Below are positions 6,409 through 63,205 of a stretch of 64,000 nucleotides of DNA, one piece after another. The stretch is taken from positions 1-64,000 of the forward strand of contig PLCB01000009.1 in NCBI GenBank assembly GCA_003134695.1, read 5' to 3'. This DNA comes from Candidatus Zemynaea palustris (lineage in GTDB: Bacteria; Vulcanimicrobiota; Vulcanimicrobiia; Vulcanimicrobiales; Vulcanimicrobiaceae). Position 1 is the first letter of the stretch. The number at the start of each line of letters is the position of its first letter. Under the pieces are notes generated by a model. That model had not been told where the DNA came from. It saw nothing but the letters and a program-made list of their open reading frames with translations, and did no database searches. The position numbers were made by a program, and so were the translations under genes.

Positions 6409-8784
6409 TTACTTGACCGTGACGTTGAAGGTGATCGTACCCGTCAAGCCCGGCTGCAGCTTGAATGCTGCGCCGCCGACCGTCGCGACGAACGAGCTTG
6501 GGCCGGCCGTGATGCCCGGATACGCGCCCGACGCAAACGTGCCCGAGGGCAGGTAGGTGTAGGTCGTTCCGCCCGTGGTGTCGCTCGGTGCCGCGTTCAG
6601 GCCGAAGGTGTTCGTGCCCCACGAATTGCCCGAAGCGTTGCCGTCTTCGGTCAAAGCCAGGGTGCCCGCGCCGGTCGTAATGCCGGCCAGCGCCCAGGCC
6701 GGCTCGGTCCCCGCGTTCGTGCCGCCCGGCGCAACCGCCGCGGGCGCGATGTTGAGGTACGTCACGGTGTACTGCAGCACGCCGCCCGGACAGACGGTCC
6801 CGGCCGGGGGCGCGGGCGATGCGCCGGCCGGACAGTTCGTGCTGGTGACGGAGACAGCGGCAGTCAACTTGACGGCACCTCCGGGGTAGAGGTCGTCGTG
6901 CGTGTCGTTCGTGTCCGCTGCGCCGCCGAGCGTTCCGGTGGCGGTCAAGGTGGAGTCGACGGCGACGAACGGGGTCACCGCGCTTGCCGCCTTATAGACC
7001 GCGATGTAATGGAAGTATGCACCCGAGGCCACCGAGCCGATGCTGCCGCTCACCGTGCCACCTGCACTCGAGACGCCGGTGAGCGCCGAGCCGAGCGTGC
7101 ACGTCGGCAAGCTCGTCCCACCGTACGGAAGCGCCGGACAACCCGTCGCGGCGTAGAGTTGGACCGTATAACCCGCCGGCGCCGTCGCTTGAAGCGTGAA
7201 TGTGTCGGAGACGTTGCCGGTGTTTTGGATCGAGTTGACTACCTGAACACCGGCTGCCGGAACGTTGCAGGTAAAGCTGCCATTGTTGATCGCCGCGCCG
7301 TTGCTGCACGCGAAACCGACGGCAGTGAAGTCGAGGTTGTTGGTCGCCGCCGCCGAGCCGTTATTGGAAGCCGCCGGATACGAACCGGTCGCACCGGGTT
7401 GGCCGAACGGACCGTTGACGACCGCACCGGTCGTCGCGGCCTGACTGGACGCGGTGTTTGATGCGCCGCCGGGTGGCGTGACGCCGCTGCTCGGGGTCGT
7501 GTTTTGCAGCGGACCCGACCCACCGGTCAGGTTCGATGACGATGCGCTGTCGGCGGTTCCGACGGCTACACCAGGGGCAACGATCGGGATGACGCTCGTC
7601 GCGCCGACGTTGCCGCCGATGATGCCGTTGGCGATGTCGTTAACCGAGCCGCTGATTCCCGAACCGTTGCCCGAGGGCTGACTGGTCAAGAACGTCAGCG
7701 TGATTTGTGCGCTCGTTACGTTGCCTGCGCCGGTCGAACCGCCCGTATTCGACGGAAGTTCGACCGCGCCCGAGCCTCCCGTGATGAAGGCGCCGATCAT
7801 TGCCGCGCTGAGATTCTGGGTGGTGGTCCATCCGCTCGCGCCGGTCGCGTCGGTCGTGTAGTACAAGGTCGCGGTCGCGCCCGACGTCGCGCCGCTCAGG
7901 CTGACCGTCGGCGTTTGCGTCAGCGCGAGAGGCGATCCGCCGAACGCCGGCACCTTCGTCGACAGGAAGATGCCCTGATTCGCCGTGCCGAGCAAAGCTT
8001 TCACCGATGCGAGATCGTGCGCGGCGAATCCGCCGCCGTTGTTGGCGATGATCGTCCACGTGATCGCGGGCCCCGAGGTGGCCGGTTGCGAAGCGGTCGC
8101 TTTGACGTCGAGCCGCGCGTCGGCCAGGATTGTGTCGGAATCGTTGCCCGTCACGTTGGCCGACGTTACAGCAGGAGCGCATCCGGGATTGCCGCTGGTG
8201 CAACCGTTCGGCGTCGTGGCATAGGCGATGTTGGCCGTCATGGACGCGCTCACGGTACCGGGCGAGGCGCCCAGGTTGACTTTATACTGGACGCCGATCG
8301 TGATCGAACCGTTGACCGCCGTCGCCGCAAGGGCGTTCAGTTGCGTTTGCAACGTCGCGAGTGAACAGGACGTGGCGACCGAACAGGTGCCGGTCGCCGC
8401 GCCGTTGAGGACGTAGCCCTGCAAGGCTGCGCTGCCGGTGATCGTCGAGTCGCTGGGCACCGTCCAGGTGCCGGCGGCGTTGCCGGTGTTGGTCAGTGTA
8501 TAGGTGTCGACGACGAGATCGCCAGGCGCAGTGTTTTGCGCGGCACCCGGCGGCGTGACCGTCAGCGAAGGCGCGTTCTGAACGGTCGTGCTGACGGTGT
8601 TCGAATTCGAACTGAAATTGTTTCCGCTGCCGTCTTGATAGGTCGCACTCGCCGTGTTCGTGATCTGAACGCCGGGAGCGGTCGCGGCCGAGGCAGGTTG
8701 GCCGCCGAAGTTCGCGATCAGCGCGAACGCTACGGCGGCGCTAAGAGCGAGACGCAACAGTGTCGCTCGGTGATTGGTCGCCAT
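6409..8784 (-). CDS. Long DUF11-type exported surface protein
   Basis: 791 aa, Ala/Thr/Gly/Ser-rich with very little charge, as in secreted stalk proteins. Signal peptide at residues 1-34 (LALSAAVAFALIANFGG, ending PASA). The mature start (VQITNTASATYQDGSGN, then SNTVSTTV) matches the N-terminus of the 719-aa neighbour. Beta-rich modules with paired Cys follow, and the C-terminal part contains the DUF11-like TVTYLNIAPAAVAPGG segment. ATG 8784 overlaps the preceding stop as TAATG; 24 bp separate its stop from the next ATG. Likely a structural surface component; no catalytic motif is visible. Confidence 0.75.
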   Translation of the reverse strand: MATNHRATLLRLALSAAVAFALIANFGGQPASAATAPGVQITNTASATYQDGSGNNFSSNSNTVSTTVQNAPSLTVTPPGAAQNTAPGDLVVDTYTLTNTGNAAGTWTVPSDSTITGSAALQGYVLNGAATGTCSVATSCSLATLQTQLNALAATAVNGSITIGVQYKVNLGASPGTVSASMTANIAYATTPNGCTSGNPGCAPAVTSANVTGNDSDTILADARLDVKATASQPATSGPAITWTIIANNGGGFAAHDLASVKALLGTANQGIFLSTKVPAFGGSPLALTQTPTVSLSGATSGATATLYYTTDATGASGWTTTQNLSAAMIGAFITGGSGAVELPSNTGGSTGAGNVTSAQITLTFLTSQPSGNGSGISGSVNDIANGIIGGNVGATSVIPIVAPGVAVGTADSASSSNLTGGSGPLQNTTPSSGVTPPGGASNTASSQAATTGAVVNGPFGQPGATGSYPAASNNGSAAATNNLDFTAVGFACSNGAAINNGSFTCNVPAAGVQVVNSIQNTGNVSDTFTLQATAPAGYTVQLYAATGCPALPYGGTSLPTCTLGSALTGVSSAGGTVSGSIGSVASGAYFHYIAVYKAASAVTPFVAVDSTLTATGTLGGAADTNDTHDDLYPGGAVKLTAAVSVTSTNCPAGASPAPPAGTVCPGGVLQYTVTYLNIAPAAVAPGGTNAGTEPAWALAGITTGAGTLALTEDGNASGNSWGTNTFGLNAAPSDTTGGTTYTYLPSGTFASGAYPGITAGPSSFVATVGGAAFKLQPGLTGTITFNVTVK

Positions 8785-9724: not shown

Positions 9725-11389
9725 ATGCCGAAACGGTCCGGCGGCGAAATCCTCGTGGCGGCGCTGCGTACGAACGGCGTCGACGCGCTCTACTGTGTCC
9801 CCGGCGAAAGCTACATCGCCGTCCTCGACGCCCTCTACGACGCGCCGGGCGTTCGCGTCGTCACCTGCCGGCACGAAGCCGCCGCCGCAAACATGGCCGA
9901 AGCCGACGGAAAGATGACGGGCCGTCCGGGCGTCGCGTTTGTGACCCGCGGCCCCGGCGCGACGCACGCCAGCATCGGCGTGCACACCGCGATGCAGGAT
10001 TCGACGCCGATGCTGCTCTTCGTCGGCCAAGTTCCCCGGCGCTTGCGCGGGCGCGACGCCTTTCAAGAAGTCGACTACGAGAAGATGTTCGGCGGGCTCG
10101 CGAAATGGGCGTTCGAGATCGACGATGCGCGTCGCATCCCGGAGATCGTCGCGCGCGCCTTTGGCGTCGCGTGCGCCGGCCGCCCGGGGCCCGTCGTGAT
10201 CTCGCTCCCGGAAGACGTGCTGGCCGAACACGTCGACGCCGTCGATCTCGGACCCACGCGAACGGTGCACGCATATCCCAGCGAAGACGAGCTCGTCGCC
10301 TTCTGCACGATGCTCGCTGCGGCGGAGCGGCCGCTCGTCATCCTCGGCGGGAGCGTGTGGGACGCCGAAGCCTGCGCGGCGTTGCGGCGCTTCGCGACGC
10401 GCTCCGCGCTAGCGGTCGCGTGTTCGTTTCGGCGGCAGGCACTCTTCGATAATCGCGACGAGCACTACGTCGGCGACCTCGGCTATGGCGTCGATCCGGC
10501 GCTCGCGCTGCGCGTGCGCGACGCCGATTTGATCGTCGCGATCGGAGGCCGGCTGGGCGACGTTCCGACCGGGAGTTACAGCTTGATCGAAGCGCCGCGC
10601 CCGCGCCAGCGGCTCGTCCACGTGCACCCCGATCCGCTGGAACTCGGCCGCGTCTTCGAGACGGCGCTTGCGATCAACGCCGCGCCAACCGCGTTTGCGC
10701 GCGCGCTCGATCGCGTGCCGCCGATCGACGGGACGCGCTGGGCCGAGTCGACGCGTGCGGGGCGCCGCGCTTACGAGGCATACGTGCAGCCGCCGCCCAT
10801 CGAGAGCGCCCTCGACCTTGCCGCGATCGTCCGATTTCTCTCCGAGCGCTTGCCCGAGGATGCGTTCATTACGACCGGTGCCGGCAATTTCTCGATTTGG
10901 CCGCGGCGTTTCTTCCAATATAAGCAATTCGGAACGCAGCTGGCGCCGATCGCGGGAGCGATGGCCTACGGCGTCCCGGCCGCGGTCGCCGCAAAGTTAC
11001 GGTATCCCGACCGGATCGCGGTCGCGTTCGCCGGTGACGGCGACTTCATGATGAGTGGTCAGGAGTTGGCGACCGCGATGCAATACGGCGCGGCGATCGT
11101 CGTCGTCGTCATCAACAACGGGATGCTCGGGACGATTCGGATGCACCAGGAGCAACATTACCCCGGACGGACCATCGCGACCGACCTATGCAATCCGGAC
11201 TTCGTCGCGCTGGCGCGAGCCTATGGCGCGCACGCGGCGCTGGTCGAGCGGACTGCCGACTTCGCAGCCGCGTTCGAGGCGGCGCTCGCGAGCGGCCGGC
11301 CCGCGTTGCTCGAGTTGCGCGTCGACCCCGATCGGATCACGCCGTCGCAGACGCTCAGCGGCATTCGCGCGCGCGCCGGCCACGCCTGA
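9725..11389 (+). CDS. Thiamine-pyrophosphate-dependent enzyme, acetolactate-synthase-like
   Basis: 554 aa with the three-domain layout of the IlvB/benzoylformate-decarboxylase family. The N-terminal Pyr domain has the cofactor-activating Glu (CRHEAAAANMAEADGKMTG) and the C-terminal PP domain has the GDG...N Mg-TPP motif (AFAGDGDFMM, then VVVINNGMLG). Because the Glu is retained it is not a glyoxylate carboligase, where this residue is Val. ATG 9725 is preferred over 9677: GGAG precedes it and homologues begin near KRSGGEILVAALRTNGV. Length fits a complete enzyme. No small regulatory IlvH subunit is adjacent, so a catabolic or 2-oxoacid decarboxylase-type role is as likely as branched-chain biosynthesis; the substrate cannot be read from sequence. 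Confidence 0.85.
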   Translation: MPKRSGGEILVAALRTNGVDALYCVPGESYIAVLDALYDAPGVRVVTCRHEAAAANMAEADGKMTGRPGVAFVTRGPGATHASIGVHTAMQDSTPMLLFVGQVPRRLRGRDAFQEVDYEKMFGGLAKWAFEIDDARRIPEIVARAFGVACAGRPGPVVISLPEDVLAEHVDAVDLGPTRTVHAYPSEDELVAFCTMLAAAERPLVILGGSVWDAEACAALRRFATRSALAVACSFRRQALFDNRDEHYVGDLGYGVDPALALRVRDADLIVAIGGRLGDVPTGSYSLIEAPRPRQRLVHVHPDPLELGRVFETALAINAAPTAFARALDRVPPIDGTRWAESTRAGRRAYEAYVQPPPIESALDLAAIVRFLSERLPEDAFITTGAGNFSIWPRRFFQYKQFGTQLAPIAGAMAYGVPAAVAAKLRYPDRIAVAFAGDGDFMMSGQELATAMQYGAAIVVVVINNGMLGTIRMHQEQHYPGRTIATDLCNPDFVALARAYGAHAALVERTADFAAAFEAALASGRPALLELRVDPDRITPSQTLSGIRARAGHA

Positions 11390-12787: not shown

Positions 12788-13655
12788 GACGTTGCTGGCG
12801 ACGGTTCGCCCCGAGCGCGCCGGAACGCCGGTCGACGCCGCAAAGTTCGGCATCGTCCAGAAGCGGCTTTCGACGTGGGAAAACGTCTGGAATCAAGCGT
12901 GGCTGCGCAAGCTCCTCATCCTGATCGCACTCGCGGCGATTTGGGAAATCTACGGACGCGCGGTCAACAACCAGCTGATCGTACCGCCGTTCAGCGATAC
13001 GATCAAAGCGTTCTTCGCGAGCATCGCCGACGGAGAATTGCCGGCCAAGGTTTGGACGTCGATCAAGGTTCTCTCGTTCGGCTACGCGATGGGCGTGTTT
13101 CTCGCCGCGGTGCTCACGACGCTTGCCATCACGACCCGTTTCGGCAACGATCTCCTCGAGACGCTGACCGCGATGTTCAACCCGTTGCCGGCGATAGCGC
13201 TCTTACCGCTCGCGCTGTTGTGGTTCGGACTCAAACCGTTCAGCCTCGCCTTCGTGCTGATCCATTCGGTGCTGTGGCCGGTCGCCCTCAACACCCATAC
13301 CGGTTTTGTCGCGGTCTCGACGACGTTGCGGATGGTCGGAAAGAATTACGGCCTGCGCGGGGTCGGTTACGTCGCGAAGATTCTGATCCCGGCGGCCTTT
13401 CCGAGCATTCTCGCCGGCCTCAAGCTCGGCTGGGCCTTCGCCTGGCGAACGCTGATCGCGGCCGAACTCGTCTTCGGCGTCACGACCGGCGGCGGCGGGC
13501 TCGGTTGGTTCATCGTCGAGAACAAGAACGTCCTGAACATCCCCTACGTCTTCGCCGGCCTGTTCACGGTCATCTTGATCGGCTTGTTCGTCGAGAACGT
13601 CATTTTCAGAACCATCGAGCAGCGCACGATCCGGCGCTGGGGAATGGCTTCCTAA
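12780..13655 (+). CDS. ABC importer permease, SsuC/TauC family
   Basis: 291 aa from ATG 12780, which overlaps the ATPase stop. About six transmembrane helices; the N-terminal cytoplasmic stretch contains the ENVWNQAWLRKLLILIALAA entry into the first helix. The EAA coupling loop is present around residues 185-205 (GVGYVAKILIPAAFPSILAG), followed by GLKLGWAFAWRTLIAAEL, standard for the BPD_transp_1 domain of sulfonate/taurine/pyrimidine-type importers. Forms the membrane pore with the ATPase and the binding protein downstream. Confidence 0.9.
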   Translation: MAKTLLATVRPERAGTPVDAAKFGIVQKRLSTWENVWNQAWLRKLLILIALAAIWEIYGRAVNNQLIVPPFSDTIKAFFASIADGELPAKVWTSIKVLSFGYAMGVFLAAVLTTLAITTRFGNDLLETLTAMFNPLPAIALLPLALLWFGLKPFSLAFVLIHSVLWPVALNTHTGFVAVSTTLRMVGKNYGLRGVGYVAKILIPAAFPSILAGLKLGWAFAWRTLIAAELVFGVTTGGGGLGWFIVENKNVLNIPYVFAGLFTVILIGLFVENVIFRTIEQRTIRRWGMAS

Positions 13656-51042: not shown

Positions 51043-51074
51043 AATTGGGCCACTTTTTGGCCCCCGTTAATCGA

Positions 51075-51096
51075 AAAACCGCTTAACAACGCGGTT
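51075..51096 (+). terminator. Terminator-like hairpin next to the left att-like repeat
   Basis: AACCGC and GCGGTT form a 6-bp stem around an 8-nt loop, preceded by AAAA and followed by CCTTT, about 35 bp after the stop of the TIG-type protein. A decayed version of the same block precedes the second repeat near 53665-53686. Confidence 0.45.
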
Positions 51097-51102
51097 CCTT
51101 TG

Positions 51103-51123
51103 GTAGCCCCAACGGGATTCGAA
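51103..51123. repeat. tRNA-3'-end-like direct repeat, copy 1 (putative att site)
   Basis: A 21-bp block containing CCCCAACGGGATTCGAA. Read on the minus strand it is the T-loop, T-stem and acceptor strand of a tRNA 3' half (TTCGAATCCCGTTGGGG, then CTACCA with the encoded CCA). No complete tRNA can be folded from the flank: the 5' T-stem bases do not pair. Tyrosine-recombinase elements commonly use exactly this tRNA part as their attachment core. Confidence 0.65.
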
Positions 51124-51221
51124 TCCGACGCTTCGTGGTTTTGTGCGGGCGCGAGAGGGCTCACATGGCCGAGGAATCGAGGCTTTTCAGGTGTCGGCGG
51201 GTTTCGATGGGCGGGCGTGGT

Positions 51222-51249
51222 TGCAACCGACTGCAACCAGATTGCAACC
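51222..51249. repeat. Phased TGCAACC repeat cluster A
   Basis: Three copies of TGCAACC begin at 51222, 51232 and 51243, i.e. about one helical turn apart, roughly 100 bp from the left att-like repeat. Such phased repeats look like protein-binding iterons, for example arm-type sites for a tyrosine integrase. Cluster B at 52871 shares the same spacing and flanking bases. Confidence 0.6.
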
Positions 51250-51364
51250 AGGAAACGCGCCAATTCCGTGCCACCTTCGCCGCCCTCCCGCAATCGAACG
51301 GGCAGAGTCGAACCAGCAGCAATCCGTTTTTCTAGGTCGCTAAACCAAGCGTGTTACGGGGGCG

Positions 51365-52108
51365 TCAGCGTCCGGCCAGCTGAAGGCCGATGTAGGGTGC
51401 GGAACGTACCGTCTGCGCCGTGCGGCTACCAGGGTGGAGCGAACGCATCTCTTGATATAACCCAAAGACGAGCGCGCTGCTGGATGAACCCAATCGCCAA
51501 CTGACACCGCCGTCGAAGGTGACGGCGGTAAAGGTGAGCGTCCGGGCACCGTAAGCGCCCTGCGCTGCGGGATAGTAGTACAGCGCGGTAAAGACGTCGA
51601 GGCGCCTTTCGGGATTCACGGAGCGCTCGATGCCGACGCCGCCTCCGCGGATGCGGCGGTATCCGATCGGGTAGTCGAGGTTCGAGCTTGTTTGGAGAAA
51701 CCCGATCCCGGCGTAGAGATCGAAGAATCCGGTGCAGCGAGCGATACGCGCCTCGTCGGTTTCCTCAATGGCAAGGAACCATGGAACAGCAACGTCCGGA
51801 CCGGCGAGGGTATGAATGACGGTGTCCGTTTGGTCGCCGGTGTGCTCCGTCTGGTATTCGCTGCGGTGCGTTTGAATCGTAAGTGCGTAGCCCTTGCGAA
51901 TCAAGGTCCCTCTTGCAAAGAACGACGGGAACTCCTCATTACCGTCGCTTGCGACCTGGTTATACACGTCTCCGAGCGAGTTGGCCACGACAATACTTTG
52001 CGAATCAGCCGTCGAGCACGGCCGCGCCTGAGCCGACGCACCGATCGCGAGCACACTGGCGAAAAAGAGTGCGGCCGCGATTGGCGCGCGTAAAGGTCCG
52101 AACGTCAA
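51365..52108 (-). CDS. Small outer-membrane beta-barrel-like exported protein
   Basis: 247 aa. Signal peptide RAPIAAALFFASVLAIGASA, ending AQA. The mature sequence alternates polar and aromatic residues (TGFFDLYAGIGFLQTSSNLD; RLDVFTALYYYPAAQGAYGA) and ends in a short strand-like SAPYIGLQLAGR, as in small barrels. Lies between the two att-like repeats. No specific family recognised. Confidence 0.65.
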   Translation of the reverse strand: MTFGPLRAPIAAALFFASVLAIGASAQARPCSTADSQSIVVANSLGDVYNQVASDGNEEFPSFFARGTLIRKGYALTIQTHRSEYQTEHTGDQTDTVIHTLAGPDVAVPWFLAIEETDEARIARCTGFFDLYAGIGFLQTSSNLDYPIGYRRIRGGGVGIERSVNPERRLDVFTALYYYPAAQGAYGARTLTFTAVTFDGGVSWRLGSSSSALVFGLYQEMRSLHPGSRTAQTVRSAPYIGLQLAGR

Positions 52109-52143
52109 TTGGTCGCGCTATGACTCAGCAAAACCGAGCCGCA

Positions 52144-52599
52144 CTAGCCGCAGCTCGAGCTATCGCCGACAAGGGTAAGCGTCGCCGTCACGCCGCCGCC
52201 GGCCGTGACGGTAAGCGTGTTCGTGATTGCGCCGCCTGAATCGGTAACGGTGAATGTTGTCGCCGAGGTACCGCTGGATGGTGAGACCGTAAAGCTGGTC
52301 GAGTTACTAACCACCGTAAACGTCCCGCTATAGTTGGCTTGTGAGATAGTGAACGTGTTCAGGGCCCCGTTCGTGCAAAAGACGGTCATCGTGTTGCCGC
52401 TGACGTTCGGACCACGGAACGTCACAGCGCCGGGCGCCGGGGTCGGGGTGGGTGAGGGCGACGGCGACGCGATCGGCGTTGAGCTTGACGCATTTCCGCC
52501 CGATCCGCTGCACTGGGCGAGGGTAACGCCCAGCGCGGCTAGAGCCAGAAAGCCGAAAATCTGAACTTTCGCACGCAGCATTTCGCGTCTCGCTTTCAT
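52144..52599 (-). CDS. Small lipoprotein with Pro/Ser/Thr linker and BACON-like beta domain
   Basis: 151 aa. Hydrophobic leader FGFLALAALGVTLAQC with a lipobox-like LAQC, followed by SGSGG and a PSPSPTPTPAP linker, then a beta-rich domain with TFTISQANYSGTFTVVSNST and repeated Thr/Gly strands. Probably membrane-anchored on the cell surface. An alternative start is ATG 52581. Lies inside the putative integrated segment. Confidence 0.65.
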   Translation of the reverse strand: MKARREMLRAKVQIFGFLALAALGVTLAQCSGSGGNASSSTPIASPSPSPTPTPAPGAVTFRGPNVSGNTMTVFCTNGALNTFTISQANYSGTFTVVSNSTSFTVSPSSGTSATTFTVTDSGGAITNTLTVTAGGGVTATLTLVGDSSSCG

Positions 52600-53290
52600 A
52601 GAACCGTCTTCAAAAAGCGGGTTCGCGTCGAACGGCGTTCACCCTGTGGTAGACGCACGCGAGACAAATCTGGGAACGACGGCTCCGAGGGCTTCAGGTT
52701 GAAGCCTGGCCCAAAGGTAGCAGACCGGGCCACGGCCCGCCCTCCACGGTCGCCGAAGAAAAGGCGCACAACCCGTTTTTCTAGGGTCAGGACGGGGTGC
52801 GGTCGGTTACCAAAGGTTTATTCCGTGAGACTTTTCGGCTTCTGAGGGTCATCATTCGGCCAGGCGTGGTTGCAGCCGACTGCGACCAAATTGCAACCAG
52901 AAAATGGCGTTACAGGAAAGCGGGAAAGAACGTGGGCTGATTGAGCCCTCAGGATGCGGCGAACGCGTGTGACGAACTATAAAGGCTCGCGTCCAAGCGC
53001 CAGCGCGCGGCAGCGCGTTTGGAATGCATGAATTCGAGCATTCTGGATGGCAGGCGCGTCGTGCCAGCGCGGCTGGCACAGCGCAGTGAAGGCATCGGCT
53101 TCGTCCGTTGTCCCCGGCCTTGCAGCTCGAGCCGTTCGCGGCGTTCGAGCGCGCTGACCGAGGGAACGGCTTCGTAAGTAAGGGATGAGGGCCGGCCCCT
53201 GAGAGGCACGCGGCGTCGAAGACGAGGGTAACCAGCGTTGCCTTCTGCGCGCCGCTGCCCCGATACCGTGATTGGTGGCCGCTCGGAGTA
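52600..53290. other. Intergenic region containing repeat cluster B
   Basis: About 690 bp with no supported gene. At 52871-52898 there are three TGCAACC-like units (TGCAGCC, TGCGACC, TGCAACC) with the same 10/11-bp spacing as cluster A, and the flanks share GCGTGGTTGCA and CCAG. A CCGTTTTTCTAGG block near 52780 also recurs near 51325. The remainder may be degraded mobile-element DNA. Confidence 0.5.
52871..52898. repeat. Phased TGCAACC repeat cluster B
   Basis: Imperfect copies at 52871, 52881 and 52892 keep the 10- then 11-bp spacing seen in cluster A, and the surrounding ~40 bp is clearly homologous to it. This points to duplication of a whole functional site rather than chance repetition. 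Confidence 0.55.
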
Positions 53291-53581
53291 TTGTTGCTTA
53301 TCGACACTGGGGCAAACGTAAGTGGCATCGACGAGCAGGTCGCTGCGCAACTTGGACTTCAGACGACCGGGCCTAAGAAGGTCCACGGTATCGGAGGCCC
53401 GGGCACGGCGAACGAACACATCGTTCAGATCCGGCTGTCGGGCGCTGGGACGGCTCTATGGTTGGTGGTCAGTGCGAAGCTACAAGGAGCTGGCAATATC
53501 GCGCTCATTGGGACCGACATCCTGACCGAATGCGTCTTCGTCTTTGACGGGCCTAACGGGACGTTTTCCCTGAGCTGGTAG
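53291..53581 (+). CDS. Retropepsin-like aspartyl protease domain protein, possibly 5'-truncated
   Basis: 96 aa from TTG 53291. LLIDTGANVSGIDEQVAAQL contains the catalytic DTG triad of clan AA, and the later IALIGTDILTECVFVFDGP matches the hydrophobic-GxD/N part of bacterial retropepsins. Homologues usually have 10-20 residues before the DTG strand; here the frame is open upstream but without a good start, so the N-terminus may be lost or use a non-standard start. Single-domain proteases of this type act as dimers. Confidence 0.65.
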   Translation: MLLIDTGANVSGIDEQVAAQLGLQTTGPKKVHGIGGPGTANEHIVQIRLSGAGTALWLVVSAKLQGAGNIALIGTDILTECVFVFDGPNGTFSLSW

Positions 53582-53625
53582 CTAAGGCGGAAAACCGGTC
53601 CATCCCGACGCTCTCGCTACTCGAC

Positions 53626-53643
53626 TGCAACCAAACTGCAACC
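53626..53643. repeat. Phased TGCAACC repeat cluster C
   Basis: Two TGCAACC copies 11 bp apart (53626 and 53637), about 50 bp before the right att-like repeat. With cluster A next to the left repeat this gives an arrangement like arm sites beside both attachment cores. Confidence 0.55.
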
Positions 53644-53691
53644 AGGATCGGCTCGAGAACGAAAAAACCCCGTGGTTACGCGGTTCGGATT

Positions 53692-53712
53692 GTAGCCCCA
53701 ACGGGATTCGAA
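53692..53712. repeat. tRNA-3'-end-like direct repeat, copy 2 (putative att site)
   Basis: Identical over 21 bp to the copy at 51103-51123 and preceded by the same ACGCGGTTC block nine bases long after a 5-bp difference. The encoded CCA is not kept here (CTACAA). The two copies are direct repeats 2.6 kb apart and bracket the barrel-like, lipoprotein and protease genes. Confidence 0.65.
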
Positions 53713-53907
53713 CTCTCAGCCAGCGGTCCCGGCCGATCCCTGGCAATCCCCAAGAGGCCCGTTCTATAAAGTTTCCGGCGCAGCGGCATCACAGGCGCTC
53801 CCTAGCGATCCCTGTCACGTTCACCCGCTCCGTGACAAAATTGTGACAAAGCTGAAAGCCTATTGGGCTGCGCAATTCCAATTACGGAGGTGCCGTGAGT
53901 CCGGAAT
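53713..53907. other. Non-coding stretch after the right att-like repeat
   Basis: About 195 bp, AT-rich at its end, with a GTGACAAAATTGTGAC direct repeat near 53835-53850 but no supported gene. It follows the 53692 repeat and precedes the 3' end of a minus-strand gene. Confidence 0.4.
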
Positions 53908-57200: not shown

Positions 57201-57770
57201 ATGTTGCTGGACCGCTATCTGTTGTTTGCGGTGGCCAAGCCGTATGGAACGCTCGCGCTCCCATTTGTGGCGCTTGGTCCATGGCTCTTGGCTCCGCATC
57301 CCGCCGACATGCTTGTATCTGCGACGCCGATCATCGCGTGGTTCGCGGGCTCGTTCGCCTTCAGCCGGCTCGTCCGGGACGGAGAAATCGGCGCGCTCCG
57401 GGCCTCGGGCTGCACGCTGTCACGAATGCTAATCGGGCCGCTTTTCTTTGCGACGCTTTTTGCATTGGTAGCGGTAGGGATCGCTTCCCTCCTCGGGTTT
57501 CAGGGACCGGGGATACTGCGAAGTACGCAAGCCTTGGCATCAGTGCTTATTCTGGCAACTCTTCTGCCCTTGTCTGTGCGGTTTGCCAAAGGCGACGCGT
57601 ACCTGCCGTCAGGCTTTGGAATCTTGCTGCTTGGCCTCTTCGAAGGCCTCGTTGCAGTTGCATGGGCGACGGCGAGCGGACCGTGGACTGGAACAGTCCG
57701 CGTGGCAGTTCTAGACTTGGCCGCGGTCGGAAGCGTCATCTACTTCGTTCGCTGGGCCGAACGATGGTAG
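57201..57770 (+). CDS. Mini LptF/LptG-like permease
   Basis: 189 aa, about five transmembrane helices. LLDRYLLFAVAKPYG and FSRLVRDGEIGALRASGCTL (residues ~54-73) closely match the cytoplasmic coupling loop of LptF/LptG lipopolysaccharide-transport permeases, which interacts with the LptB ATPase. Full LptF/G proteins are ~360 aa with a periplasmic beta-jellyroll between helices 3 and 4; that domain is absent. It may be a reduced permease or an internally deleted copy. No other lpt gene is nearby. Confidence 0.65.
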   Translation: MLLDRYLLFAVAKPYGTLALPFVALGPWLLAPHPADMLVSATPIIAWFAGSFAFSRLVRDGEIGALRASGCTLSRMLIGPLFFATLFALVAVGIASLLGFQGPGILRSTQALASVLILATLLPLSVRFAKGDAYLPSGFGILLLGLFEGLVAVAWATASGPWTGTVRVAVLDLAAVGSVIYFVRWAERW

Positions 57771-59187: not shown

Positions 59188-59814
59188 CTATCGAACGATT
59201 GCACTCAAAATGCGCGTCCTGTCATCTTTGCTAAGCGTATCGATCTCGAGAAGGATCACAGAGACCTTCCCGATCGTTTTCGCAGAAATATGCCGGATGG
59301 ATACGCCTGGAGTGTCGGGAAGTACGATAAGCGGTTGAGCGTCCGGTTTTCCAATGATAGATCGCTCTAAAAAAAACCGAAGGCCATTGTTTAAATGAGC
59401 CGCTATTACGACGCTTTGGCCGTCGTTAGTAATCCAAGCACTGTCGACAGTTGCGATGCCAGCAAGCTCGTGGACAAGATCAACCGCCGATTGGTCAGCG
59501 TAAGGTGAGGTCAGTTGGCGTAAAGGTGAATACGAGACGTGGGTCCCAGTGATGCGCGCTAGCGCGTTGGCGAGACTATCGCCCATCGCGGAAAGATTGA
59601 CGTTGCGAGCAGCAACTGTTGCACCGGCGAGAGCCAAGAGGACTGAAAAAGTGAGAATTGATCGATACGCGAGGACTTGAACTCGACGACGGCGTGAGGC
59701 CTGGTCGAGCAATTCGCTAAAACGCGGTTTACTAAAAGGCGGAGCCGCAACGCGAAAAAATGCATCACGCGCGGCATTCAAGTGGTCGGATAACTGTTCT
59801 TCAGAGAGTTTCAT
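59188..59814 (-). CDS. Single-pass anti-sigma-like membrane protein
   Basis: 208 aa from ATG 59814, which overlaps the upstream ECF sigma gene by 14 bp. N-terminal cytoplasmic ~60 residues (LSEEQLSDHLNAARDAFFRV), then one transmembrane helix (YRSILTFSVLLALAGATVAA) and a periplasmic domain. Order and coupling fit an anti-sigma factor, but no HxxxCxxC zinc-binding motif is seen, so it would be of the non-ZAS type. Confidence 0.65.
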   Translation of the reverse strand: MKLSEEQLSDHLNAARDAFFRVAAPPFSKPRFSELLDQASRRRRVQVLAYRSILTFSVLLALAGATVAARNVNLSAMGDSLANALARITGTHVSYSPLRQLTSPYADQSAVDLVHELAGIATVDSAWITNDGQSVVIAAHLNNGLRFFLERSIIGKPDAQPLIVLPDTPGVSIRHISAKTIGKVSVILLEIDTLSKDDRTRILSAIVR

Positions 59815-60364
59815 ATGCGCCCACTCCAACGGTTTCATCGGTCGCGTCGTAATGCCGAAAAGATTCACCTAACTCTTCCGCGAGTTTCACGCGAGCGCGG
59901 TGTACGCGATATCGCACGGTGCCAGCCGGGATTCTCAGGATGTCCGCCGCCTCGCCGCTCGAATATCCGAGCAGTGCCGTCAAGACGATCGCTTCTCTGA
60001 ATGGCTTCTGCAGCAAAGAGATTGCATTTAGCACCAAAACGACATTTTCGTGTGAGGGCTCAATCGGTGCATGCCGATTGAGCGAATTATAGTGAGCGCG
60101 CATTCGGCGACGTTCTTTTGCTACGGCGCGTAGCAATATCTTCGTGAACCAGACCTTGAACGACTCAACCTTCCTGAGGCGGTGGACGTGCAGGGCACAC
60201 GCAAGGCAGGCGTTCTGGGTCGCCTCTTCGGCGATGCTCGAGTCGCCGCAGAACGCGAATGCTATTCGAAATGCTCGCGGCCAAAGGTCGGCCACGAGGC
60301 ATTCGATGCCTTCGCGCGACCCCGTGATAGCGTCGGCTACTTGCTCATCAGTTACAAGGTCCAT
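59801..60364 (-). CDS. ECF-type RNA polymerase sigma factor
   Basis: 187 aa. Sigma region 2: AFRIAFAFCGDSSIAEEATQ and VESFKVWFTKILLRAVAKER; region 4: PFREAIVLTALLGYSSGEAA followed by DILRIPAGTVRYRVHRARVK, a helix-turn-helix for the -35 element. A C-terminal ~20-residue tail follows. With the anti-sigma-like partner downstream it forms a two-gene signalling unit; its target promoters are not identifiable here. Confidence 0.85.
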   Translation of the reverse strand: MDLVTDEQVADAITGSREGIECLVADLWPRAFRIAFAFCGDSSIAEEATQNACLACALHVHRLRKVESFKVWFTKILLRAVAKERRRMRAHYNSLNRHAPIEPSHENVVLVLNAISLLQKPFREAIVLTALLGYSSGEAADILRIPAGTVRYRVHRARVKLAEELGESFRHYDATDETVGVGAYETL

Positions 60365-60494
60365 CTTTGATATAGAGGCTCGGAAGGGCCGGTTCGTTGG
60401 CAGTCCGCGCTGCCGCGATTCTGCGACAGACGAACTTTTTTCGCCGAATTAGGTCCGCCTAAGCGCGGGATGCAGGGGATCGCCAACTCGATGA

Positions 60495-60740: not shown

Positions 60741-60797
60741 GGCGGCACCCCTCCGGGCGGGTTGCGGGGCGTGGGTTGCGGGGGTCGTTGGGGGGCC
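60741..60797. repeat. GC-rich direct repeat R1 beside the AbiJ-like gene
   Basis: 57 bp, starting GGCGGCACCCCTCCGGG and ending GGTCGTTGGGGGGCC, recurring with small changes at 62191-62250. It ends 11 bp before the stop of the AbiJ-like gene. Lacks the long complementary arm seen at the second copy. Confidence 0.65.
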
Positions 60798-60808
60798 AGG
60801 TAGGCTGT

Positions 60809-61711
60809 TCAAACCGGCTGGGCGTTATGCGATTCGATCAGGAAGACAGCCAACGCCGACGCAGCTCCGGCTGCCAGCCTCGCGTGGCGCGCTTCAAGAG
60901 TCGCACTGCCGGACGTCTTGCCGTGTCCGGTTCCGTAAAGATTGCGAATCTCGGCAAGTCCCGAGGCTAGTCCGCCAAGGCTCGCCAGTATCTTCGCGAT
61001 CGCATTCTCTGTCGAGGCTTGATTTGCGATCTGCTCTGGCGTTTGGCTAAGGGCTGAGCGTGCTTTTCTTACGAGTGCCGGCATGGATTCAGTATTCGTG
61101 TATTCCACGCCTCGCGCATCGAGAATCGTCTTGCAAACCGTCTCTACCAGTTCTTTAGCGGTTCCGATGGCCAGGTCAGGCTCGGTGGCGATCGCAGCTT
61201 CCATGCGATTGATCTGCCTCGCGGTATATGCCGGATCGGTGACTGCGATAATATCCTTCGCGGCCGCGAGTCCTGGATTTGGAACCGTACCGACATAGCG
61301 CGCGGCATAAACTGGGTGTCCTGAAAGTACTGTGCTCTCGAAGAGCCTGAAGCCGTCGCGAATTAGAAGCTCATTGTACATCGAGCAAAGCCGCGAGCAC
61401 TCACCGACGTCCTGCCGTACCATTGGGTGAAGTGTCTCGCACAAAAAATTCAGGAACTGATCGTCGTCGCCGCTGGACAAACCGAAGCGATCGTCGTAGA
61501 AAACCCACGAATCGCTCCAATCGTTGTTCCTCACGGTGTGCTGAACAATATCGCCACGCGCTGTCTCAAATCTAGAATCGTTCGATGGAAACTCATCAAG
61601 AGCATAGAGTCGGGAGAGAAATTCAGGCTCATCAAGCCTTCCGCTCCAGCGAACGCCCATGCCGATCAATGCGTCCGCGATATCGCGCCTAGTGATCGCT
61701 GTAATGAGCAC
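60809..61711 (-). CDS. AbiJ-type abortive-infection phage-defence protein
   Basis: 300 aa from GTG 61711. The N-terminal ~130 residues (ITAITRRDIADALIGMGVRW; SLYALDEFP-like LSRLYALDEFPSNDSRFETA; FLCETLHPMVRQDVG) match the AbiJ N-terminal domain. The C-terminal Abi_C/HEPN-like region carries the RNxxxxxHG ribonuclease-type signature as RNLYGTGHGKTSG (~residue 256). Such proteins act in anti-phage defence, probably by RNA cleavage that kills or arrests infected cells. GTG is only 2 bp after the stop of a small upstream frame, implying coupling. The gene is bracketed by the R1/R2 repeats. Confidence 0.75.
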   Translation of the reverse strand: MLITAITRRDIADALIGMGVRWSGRLDEPEFLSRLYALDEFPSNDSRFETARGDIVQHTVRNNDWSDSWVFYDDRFGLSSGDDDQFLNFLCETLHPMVRQDVGECSRLCSMYNELLIRDGFRLFESTVLSGHPVYAARYVGTVPNPGLAAAKDIIAVTDPAYTARQINRMEAAIATEPDLAIGTAKELVETVCKTILDARGVEYTNTESMPALVRKARSALSQTPEQIANQASTENAIAKILASLGGLASGLAEIRNLYGTGHGKTSGSATLEARHARLAAGAASALAVFLIESHNAQPV

Positions 61712-61713
61712 CG

Positions 61714-61905
61714 TTATGGTGCCATGATTTGGTCAGGATTGTTCCCGGCATCGTGTGGGTTTTCGTCGATCGAGGGTTTCGGTGAATCTGGCCGGGGACT
61801 GAAGGCCGCTAGTAATTTTTCGCGGGCTTTCGTCCAGCGCGCTCCCGCGAAGATGCCCACCCATTTCTCGAACGGGCGACCAGTTCGTTCAAATGCATTA
61901 CCCAT
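61714..61905 (-). CDS. Small protein encoded directly upstream of the AbiJ-like gene
   Basis: 63 aa (MGNAFERTGRPFEKWVGIFA onward, ending DQIMAP), basic in the first half and Pro/Asp-rich in the second. The frame stays open upstream of ATG 61905 without another start. TAA is followed two bases later by the AbiJ GTG, so it may be a leader, an antitoxin-like partner or the remnant of a longer gene. No family recognised. Confidence 0.4.
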   Translation of the reverse strand: MGNAFERTGRPFEKWVGIFAGARWTKAREKLLAAFSPRPDSPKPSIDENPHDAGNNPDQIMAP

Positions 61906-62153
61906 GTCATTGATAAACCTGATTGCAGTCGCCGGGGATGCAACCAGAACTGATCGGAGGCTTCGCTCTATCCGGCTTTGATCGAACTAATCGCCGACCA
62001 GCCGCGCAATTGAGCTCTTAGCCTGCGGTGGTTCCCGTGATGCTGAGGTACAAAGCATCCGCGTACTTGTATGAGGCCCTTGGCGATACTCTTGATCGCG
62101 CTGGTTCTCCGTCGCGACCTGCGCAACGCCCGCGGCGCCTCCGCCCGCCCGCA

Positions 62154-62242
62154 AACGACTGGCGCAGCCCGCACAGCGGAGCACGCCGCAGGCGGCACCC
62201 CTCCGGGGGGCGGGTTGCGGGGCGCGGGTTGCGCCAGTCGTT
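62154..62242. repeat. Long imperfect palindrome (folded element)
   Basis: The 19-nt arms 62154-62172 (AACGACTGGCGCAGCCCGC) and 62224-62242 pair with one mismatch and enclose ~51 nt that include most of repeat R2. As DNA or RNA this would form a tall hairpin of ~90-110 nt. Size and form would suit an integron attC-like site, a transposon end or a structured RNA, but the canonical attC end motif (GTTRRRY) is not matched. Confidence 0.55.
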
Positions 62243-62250
62243 GGGGGGCC
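62191..62250. repeat. GC-rich direct repeat R2
   Basis: 60 bp, homologous to R1 at 60741-60797 and in the same orientation; both end in TCGTTGGGGGGCC. It overlaps the loop and right arm of the palindrome. R1 and R2 bracket the AbiJ-like gene and its small upstream frame. Confidence 0.65.
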
Positions 62251-62473: not shown

Positions 62474-63205
62474 TTGGCTAACTTAACCGTTGTGCCGGGC
62501 GGTCTTCCGCCAAAGCGGCCGTTTTCGATGAATGCGCGCGGCGTTGCAAAGTACATGATCGCAAGTCCGTACGCGGCTCGCAAAGTCGTCGAGGATTATG
62601 CGTTCCCTAAAGAAGAAACTCCGAAAATCATCACGCCGACGCCTGCCAAGGATGTAGTTTGGCAGTATTTCCGCAGAGGCCAGGACGAGCAAACGCTCCA
62701 CGACGCAATCGCAGCCTATGGAGTCAAACCGATCTCGGAGACCCCGGTGGCTCGGAGTCGGCGACTCGGAGCCCTTAACGCCGCGAAGATCCTTCTGAAG
62801 TTCGGGCAGGCATTCCGGGTGACGGACGTTCGACGCAAAACCTGCCTAATCACGATAGAAGGCCTCCCGGTGCGTGCTTCAATCGATTTCTTTTGCAAGG
62901 CTTCGAACGACGGAAAAATTCTCGCCATGATCTTTAATGTCGCAGCAGAGGTCTCCGACAACCACGCGAAACTTGAGCACTACGCCCGCGTTGAGAGTGA
63001 AATCGCTTGGCAGGCCACGCGCCTACATATGCCTTCAACCGACGAGATTTGGTATGTCGACCTTCTTTCAGAGAAAGTAGTGCGCCGGCATAAGACGTCG
63101 CTCAAGGCGGCTTGGCGAAATATCGAGACGACTGCGGACAACATTTTGATTGCGTACAATACGCTAATAGCGCGACGAGCACGTGAACGACGGCTTGGCG
63201 CATAG
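62474..63205 (+). CDS. Protein of unknown function near the AbiJ-like gene
   Basis: 243 aa from TTG 62474 (AAGGTG about 5 nt upstream); an internal ATG at 62528 is an alternative. Codon use is ordinary for the window edge. A strand-rich centre (CLITIEGLPVRASIDFFCKA; GKILAMIFNVAAEVSDNHAK) is followed by a helical, basic C-terminus. No family was recognised; a hydrolase or nuclease core is conceivable because of the order of acidic and Lys residues, but no diagnostic motif is present. Confidence 0.6.
   Translation: MANLTVVPGGLPPKRPFSMNARGVAKYMIASPYAARKVVEDYAFPKEETPKIITPTPAKDVVWQYFRRGQDEQTLHDAIAAYGVKPISETPVARSRRLGALNAAKILLKFGQAFRVTDVRRKTCLITIEGLPVRASIDFFCKASNDGKILAMIFNVAAEVSDNHAKLEHYARVESEIAWQATRLHMPSTDEIWYVDLLSEKVVRRHKTSLKAAWRNIETTADNILIAYNTLIARRARERRLGA

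Follow-up and report, generated by a model that had tools for sequence, protein, structure and literature searches.

A composite island at the 3' end of tRNA-Glu(CTC) as the probable carrier of an AbiJ-family gene in Candidatus Zemynaea palustris

Introduction

The AbiJ-family gene described here is, with a probability that we put at about 0.78, one cargo gene of a composite island that arose from repeated site-specific integration at the 3' end of tRNA-Glu(CTC). The window, that is the whole stretch of DNA that was analysed, consists of bases 1-64000 of contig C55 (84,883 bases), which belongs to a 2.70 Mb genome assembled into 61 contigs with a completeness of 96.7%. The stacking of foreign DNA at the ends of tRNA genes is a known route by which bacteria gather cargo. 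A sequence-only reading of this DNA had instead placed the gene, together with a tiny coupled frame, between two GC-rich direct repeats of ~58 bp, and had regarded the whole as a mobile defence cassette. In our analysis, AbiJ was more likely carried by an island of about 31-34 kb that is anchored at tRNA-Glu, and the 58-bp GC-rich pair appears to be a later local duplication of half a hairpin rather than a boundary of mobility.

Results

The AbiJ gene and its surroundings

The AbiJ-family gene (60809-61711, minus strand) is intact, starts with GTG and encodes 300 residues. Residues 3-167 match AbiJ_NTD3 (PF18860; E = 1.4e-54, 184 bits against a Pfam cut-off of 32.5) and residues 211-293 match the HEPN domain Abi_C (PF14355; E = 1.8e-21, 76.5 bits against a cut-off of 24). 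Both scores are well over the cut-offs, which confirms the earlier assignment of an abortive-infection gene. The predicted catalytic R-x6-H motif of the HEPN domain reads RNLYGTGH, in agreement with the R-x4-6-H pattern. In an alignment of AbiJ with six plasmid homologues of 34-47% identity, the residues R256, G260, G262, H263 and G264 of the R(N)xxGxGHG segment are invariant in all seven homologues. Exact peptide patterns of AbiJ, which are narrow, gave no match in IMG/VR or GTDB; homologues were obtained by genome search and tblastn.

The AbiJ proteins constitute a HEPN family with fusions to NTD1-5 and are predicted to be suicidal RNases in which the NTD senses phage and perhaps restrains the RNase (Anantharaman et al., 2013; PMC3710099). 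The C55 gene shares with the AbiJ-NTD3 family the two-domain architecture, the HEPN R-x6-H motif and the occurrence on plasmids or islands, and it shows no difference of substance; it has no partner gene. Judged from this domain architecture (PMC3710099), its product would have RNase activity and cause abortive infection, and it most likely acts as a single-protein system. In such a system, the HEPN RNase at the C-terminus would be silenced by NTD3 until a phage signal frees it, and the ensuing RNA cleavage would halt the cell ahead of phage release.

A 63-codon open frame (61714-61905, minus strand), probably no gene, ends 2 bp before the GTG start of AbiJ. The coupled frame of the sequence-only reading thus exists as an open reading frame, but it is not supported as a gene or as half of a gene pair. 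An in-frame TAG stop lies upstream of it, it gives no Pfam, PADLOC or plasmid match and only chance-level matches in relatives, and the genes upstream of the plasmid homologues of AbiJ are unrelated to one another, with no shared partner among them. A role as an antitoxin or partner was rejected on account of this want of relatives and of a common partner on plasmids.

The G+C content falls from 0.649 (1-48 kb) to 0.56-0.61 beyond 51 kb, the two GC-rich repeats excepted; values in the island are 0.57-0.61, and the AbiJ gene itself, at 0.56, lies 9 points under the chromosome. The foreign look of the DNA around AbiJ, which had been remarked upon earlier, is borne out by this drop.

tRNA-Glu(CTC) cores on contig C55

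A 20-bp core, which in relatives is the 3' end of tRNA-Glu(CTC) (ARAGORN) right downstream of tRNA-Gln(CTG), occurs on C55 at 51104-51123 and 53693-53712 (both minus strand) and at the contig end (84864-84883), and a degenerate fourth core is found at about 76263. The whole genome contains exactly these three exact copies, while the reversed control gives 0, and shuffles predict 0.00 copies in the window. The first copy marks the island edge, with a CCA-like end and a terminator-like hairpin leftwards of it. The second copy bounds the AbiJ-containing unit on the left. A repeat search of the window also returned these two copies as a 50-bp repeat (51074-51123 and 53663-53712) that terminates in TAGCCCCAACGGGATTCGAA. 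An intact tyrosine integrase gene (C55 83603-84769; Phage_integrase, 1.5e-20) comes to within 95 bp of the last core. Two marks of an island are therefore present: tRNA 3'-end direct repeats at the unit edges and a site-specific recombinase adjoining a core.

The cores are accompanied by further repeats. The arm-type direct repeat GTGACAAAATTGTGACAAA stands beside the cores at 53.7 kb (at about 53833-53852) and 84.9 kb, and arm repeats of the exact form TGTGACAAA occur on C55 only at 53842, 84786 and 84797. The 155 bp from 53695 recur with 83% identity at 76265, beside the degenerate core. The simplest reading of the arrangement is three tandem units, namely 51104-53693, 53693-76263, which holds AbiJ, and 76263-84864, which holds the integrase; the AbiJ unit has no integrase of its own. 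By recombining circular elements at the tRNA-Glu(CTC) 3' end, the integrase would have laid down units in tandem, and the integrase-less AbiJ unit may have come in, or may be moved, in cis or in trans. Since C55 stops at a core and the intact tRNA-Glu(CTC) is not in the assembly, the right edge of the island is only inferred; relatives G025 and G012 show an intact tRNA-Glu at the island edge. An empty site was not found in any close relative.

A second arm-type family, TTGCAACCA, occurs in direct and inverted orientation at 51218-51250, 52858-52904 and 53626-53648, around the unit 51104-53693. These repeats resemble integrase arm sites of a second specificity.

Other genes and remnants in the island

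Besides AbiJ, the island cargo includes a gene for an ECF-type sigma factor (59801-60364, minus strand) and a gene for a 243-aa protein (62474-63205, plus strand), whose homologue in relative G043 adjoins an integrase homologous to that of the island, at tRNA-Glu(TTC). Just right of the window and 2.8 kb from AbiJ lies a homologue of KwaA of the Kiwa system (C55 64538-65071, L041:5538-6071; PADLOC 2.4e-15), which matches the solved Kiwa KwaA (PDB) at 3e-7. Kiwa comprises KwaA and KwaB, but C55 has no recognisable KwaB, as the 88-codon frame after KwaA gives no match. This frame ends at a tRNA-Ala(CGC)-like 3' half (C55 64271-64316), readable by eye from the anticodon loop to CCA, and contig C23 terminates in 20 bases of the same 3' end; a second integration event may therefore have removed KwaB. 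Owing to such remnants, AbiJ itself may stem from an older event that can no longer be read. A tmRNA at C55 64271 was considered and rejected: the RF00023 match is sub-threshold, the site is the tRNA 3' half, and the real tmRNA is intact on contig C22.

Several other pieces were observed in the same region. A short LptF/LptG-like fragment of 189 aa lies within the island at 57201-57770. Upstream of the ECF sigma gene, an 80-bp repeat (60414-60493 and C55 72964-73043, 79% identity) has the appearance of a gene remnant, and an ORF-like MQGIAN sequence begins in both copies. A second pair of repeated hairpins (C55 66140-66220 and 73274-73354), 88% identical and of the form GTTACCAAATCGT...ACCAAAT...TTGGTAAC, may belong to a further element as its ends or arm sites.

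The integration site in relatives

The core was found in 34 of the 60 genomes of relatives, with 13 copies in G025, five in G031 and three in G014; where only one copy is present, it is in many cases just the tRNA. In a 15-kb stretch of G025, six cores delimit five successive units, and an intact tRNA-Glu(CTC) supplies the last core with its 3' end. Four of the six are exact or have one mismatch, and the others have one or two mismatches. Overall, the G025 arrays (L115-L117) hold up to six cores with units of 0.5-14 kb, mostly without a visible integrase, and no defence gene was detected by PADLOC among the six large ORFs scanned in the array units. In five relatives (L130, L117, L090, L085 and L106), the distance between the end of an integrase homologue and a core is about 95-125 bp; the homologue of L130, at the tRNA-Glu(TTC) of G043, is full-length with 50% identity. 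tRNA-Glu(CTC) is thus a recurrent integration hotspot common to relatives across one family.

In relative G012, two tRNA-Glu cores separated by 67 kb likewise enclose an AbiJ-type gene, whose Abi_C domain is similar and whose N-terminus is different. The cargo genes of this island (L112), including the AbiJ-type gene, are separated by a repeated element, an 8-bp minisatellite CTATACGC plus GAGGTCTTAGATATTCTGCAAATCGTGCTCAAACGC, at positions 1754, 6632-6881, 7743-7806, 10266-10529 and 13393-13580. The G012 repeat was observed in its island and the adjoining DNA, but not in about 220 kb of control stretches. As the repeat differs between the two islands, repeats at defence genes in the tRNA-Glu hotspot may be common, with another sequence each time.

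The GC-rich direct repeats

The left copy of the GC-rich direct repeat (60741-60797, plus strand; 82% G+C) lies 11 bp past the stop of AbiJ. The right copy (62191-62250) forms the loop and 3' arm of a GC-rich hairpin (62147-62250, no strand assigned) with a 13-bp perfect stem of the GCGCCAGTCGTT type, which folds far better than shuffles on the plus strand (z = -4.27). The copies share 88% identity over 60 columns with one 3-bp gap. The best ungapped self-match in 58-64 kb scores 31 versus 12-15 in 12 dinucleotide shuffles, so the pair is not a product of chance; both the repeats and the near contact of the left one with the AbiJ stop are as the sequence-only reading had described them. The left copy matches the right hairpin in its loop and 3' arm but lacks a 5' arm, and it folds no better than shuffles (z = +1.1 to +1.6).

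By the criterion that the same reading had set, failure to find the repeat with other cargo would speak against the cassette. No third copy exists in the 2.7-Mb genome, BLAST found no copy in 149 genomes of the phylum, and 98 relatives gave two partial matches at chance level only. Exact patterns of the repeat are absent from 84,980 species genomes (GTDB) and from IMG/VR, and a blastn search of plasmids was empty. The absence is strong for the genome and the phylum, where BLAST was used, and weaker elsewhere, since the pattern scans of the collections were exact and would miss diverged copies. The motif GCGCCAGTCGTT is not in excess of the reversed control across the genome. No recombinase gene lies between the two copies, and six plasmid homologues of the AbiJ gene have no flanking direct repeats. 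The proposal of a repeat-bounded carrier is therefore not supported.

We consider it probable that a GC-rich, structure-prone intergenic hairpin was simply duplicated as a segment, or copied through replication slippage, and that the resulting repeats are unrelated to the arrival of AbiJ. Both copies have 81-83% G+C with G-runs of the G-quadruplex type, and they account for two of the four G-quadruplex-type motifs in the 64 kb; moreover, there are only two copies, and these are imperfect. Nevertheless, their spacing exactly round one gene is suggestive, and the order of events is without proof. This explanation is compatible with the tRNA-Glu island and is part of that account.

Discussion

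The assignment of AbiJ to the tRNA-Glu island has to be weighed against three other readings. According to the first, the tRNA-Glu arrays are relics that have come down by vertical descent and are no longer active, and AbiJ, as a resident gene, has never moved in this lineage. One degenerate core (76263) and several broken-looking island genes would fit, but we regard such a history as unlikely: AbiJ_NTD3 is missing from nearly all relatives (found in one of 117 genomes of the class, by a match over the N-terminal domain), the nearest matches of AbiJ are from Streptomyces and alphaproteobacterial plasmids at 40-47% identity, the G+C content of the gene is well below that of the chromosome and the integrase is intact.

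The second reading is the original one, in which the 58-bp repeats bound a mobile AbiJ cassette of 1.45 kb. In its best form, a recombinase would act in trans, the intact hairpin would be the attachment site and the half-hairpin would be the copy made on integration. The full hairpin in one copy and only its 3' side in the other are indeed what integration into a palindromic site would leave, and a repeat so far above chance hugs the AbiJ stop. We nevertheless think it improbable to a still greater degree, given a pair that recurs nowhere in the genome, the phylum or the collections and plasmids searched, the lack of a recombinase inside and of a target duplication outside, repeats that are not attC-like, and plasmid homologues without such flanks. 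What survives of the mobile defence cassette is a defence gene of the AbiJ type within DNA that is foreign and probably mobile; the 58-bp repeats as its boundaries do not. Finally, that AbiJ is a gene cassette of a chromosomal integron with the repeats as attC sites is scarcely credible: a single gene lies between direct repeats, one of them palindromic, with its stop close to a repeat, but the hairpin ends CCCCAAC and GTTTGCG do not, by inspection, fit the core sites RYYYAAC and GTTRRRY, palindromy is missing from the left copy, and no integron integrase was recognised on C55.

The tRNA-Glu island, on the other hand, has clear counterparts. The ssrA islands of Dehalococcoides (PMC3146451) are likewise tandem islands, the limits of each being marked by a 20-bp direct repeat taken from the 3' end of an RNA gene, with some integrase-less units and an integration module at the edge. 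There are distinguishable differences between the two. The first is the target and enzyme, which are tRNA-Glu(CTC) and a tyrosine recombinase on C55 but ssrA and a serine recombinase in Dehalococcoides. The second is the cargo, which includes defence genes on C55, whereas the Dehalococcoides islands carry reductive dehalogenases. In the additive flexible island of Ca. Methylopumilus, the last 20 bp of tRNA-Lys(ctt) recur in the manner of the C55 cores, and tycheposons resemble the C55 island in combining a tRNA, a tyrosine recombinase and cargo (PMC10872708); both differ from it in the tRNA and the phylum. The C55 island is thus a tRNA-anchored accretion of an already known type, and its novelty lies in the location, the target tRNA and the cargo.

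A broader model may be put forward tentatively. Across the family, the 3' end of tRNA-Glu(CTC) could serve as an integron-like docking site, at which one family of tyrosine integrases stacks short units without integrases (0.5-14 kb, including defence genes) into a tandem array between 20-bp cores, with AbiJ as exchangeable cargo. The AbiJ gene itself is a further member of a widespread family, for whose NTD3 type the mechanism is a predicted one. If the arrays are active, they would show where accessory and defence genes can be sought in this lineage, knowledge of which comes mostly from metagenome assemblies, and the core together with the integrase would provide a simple handle for collecting the cargo of its islands.
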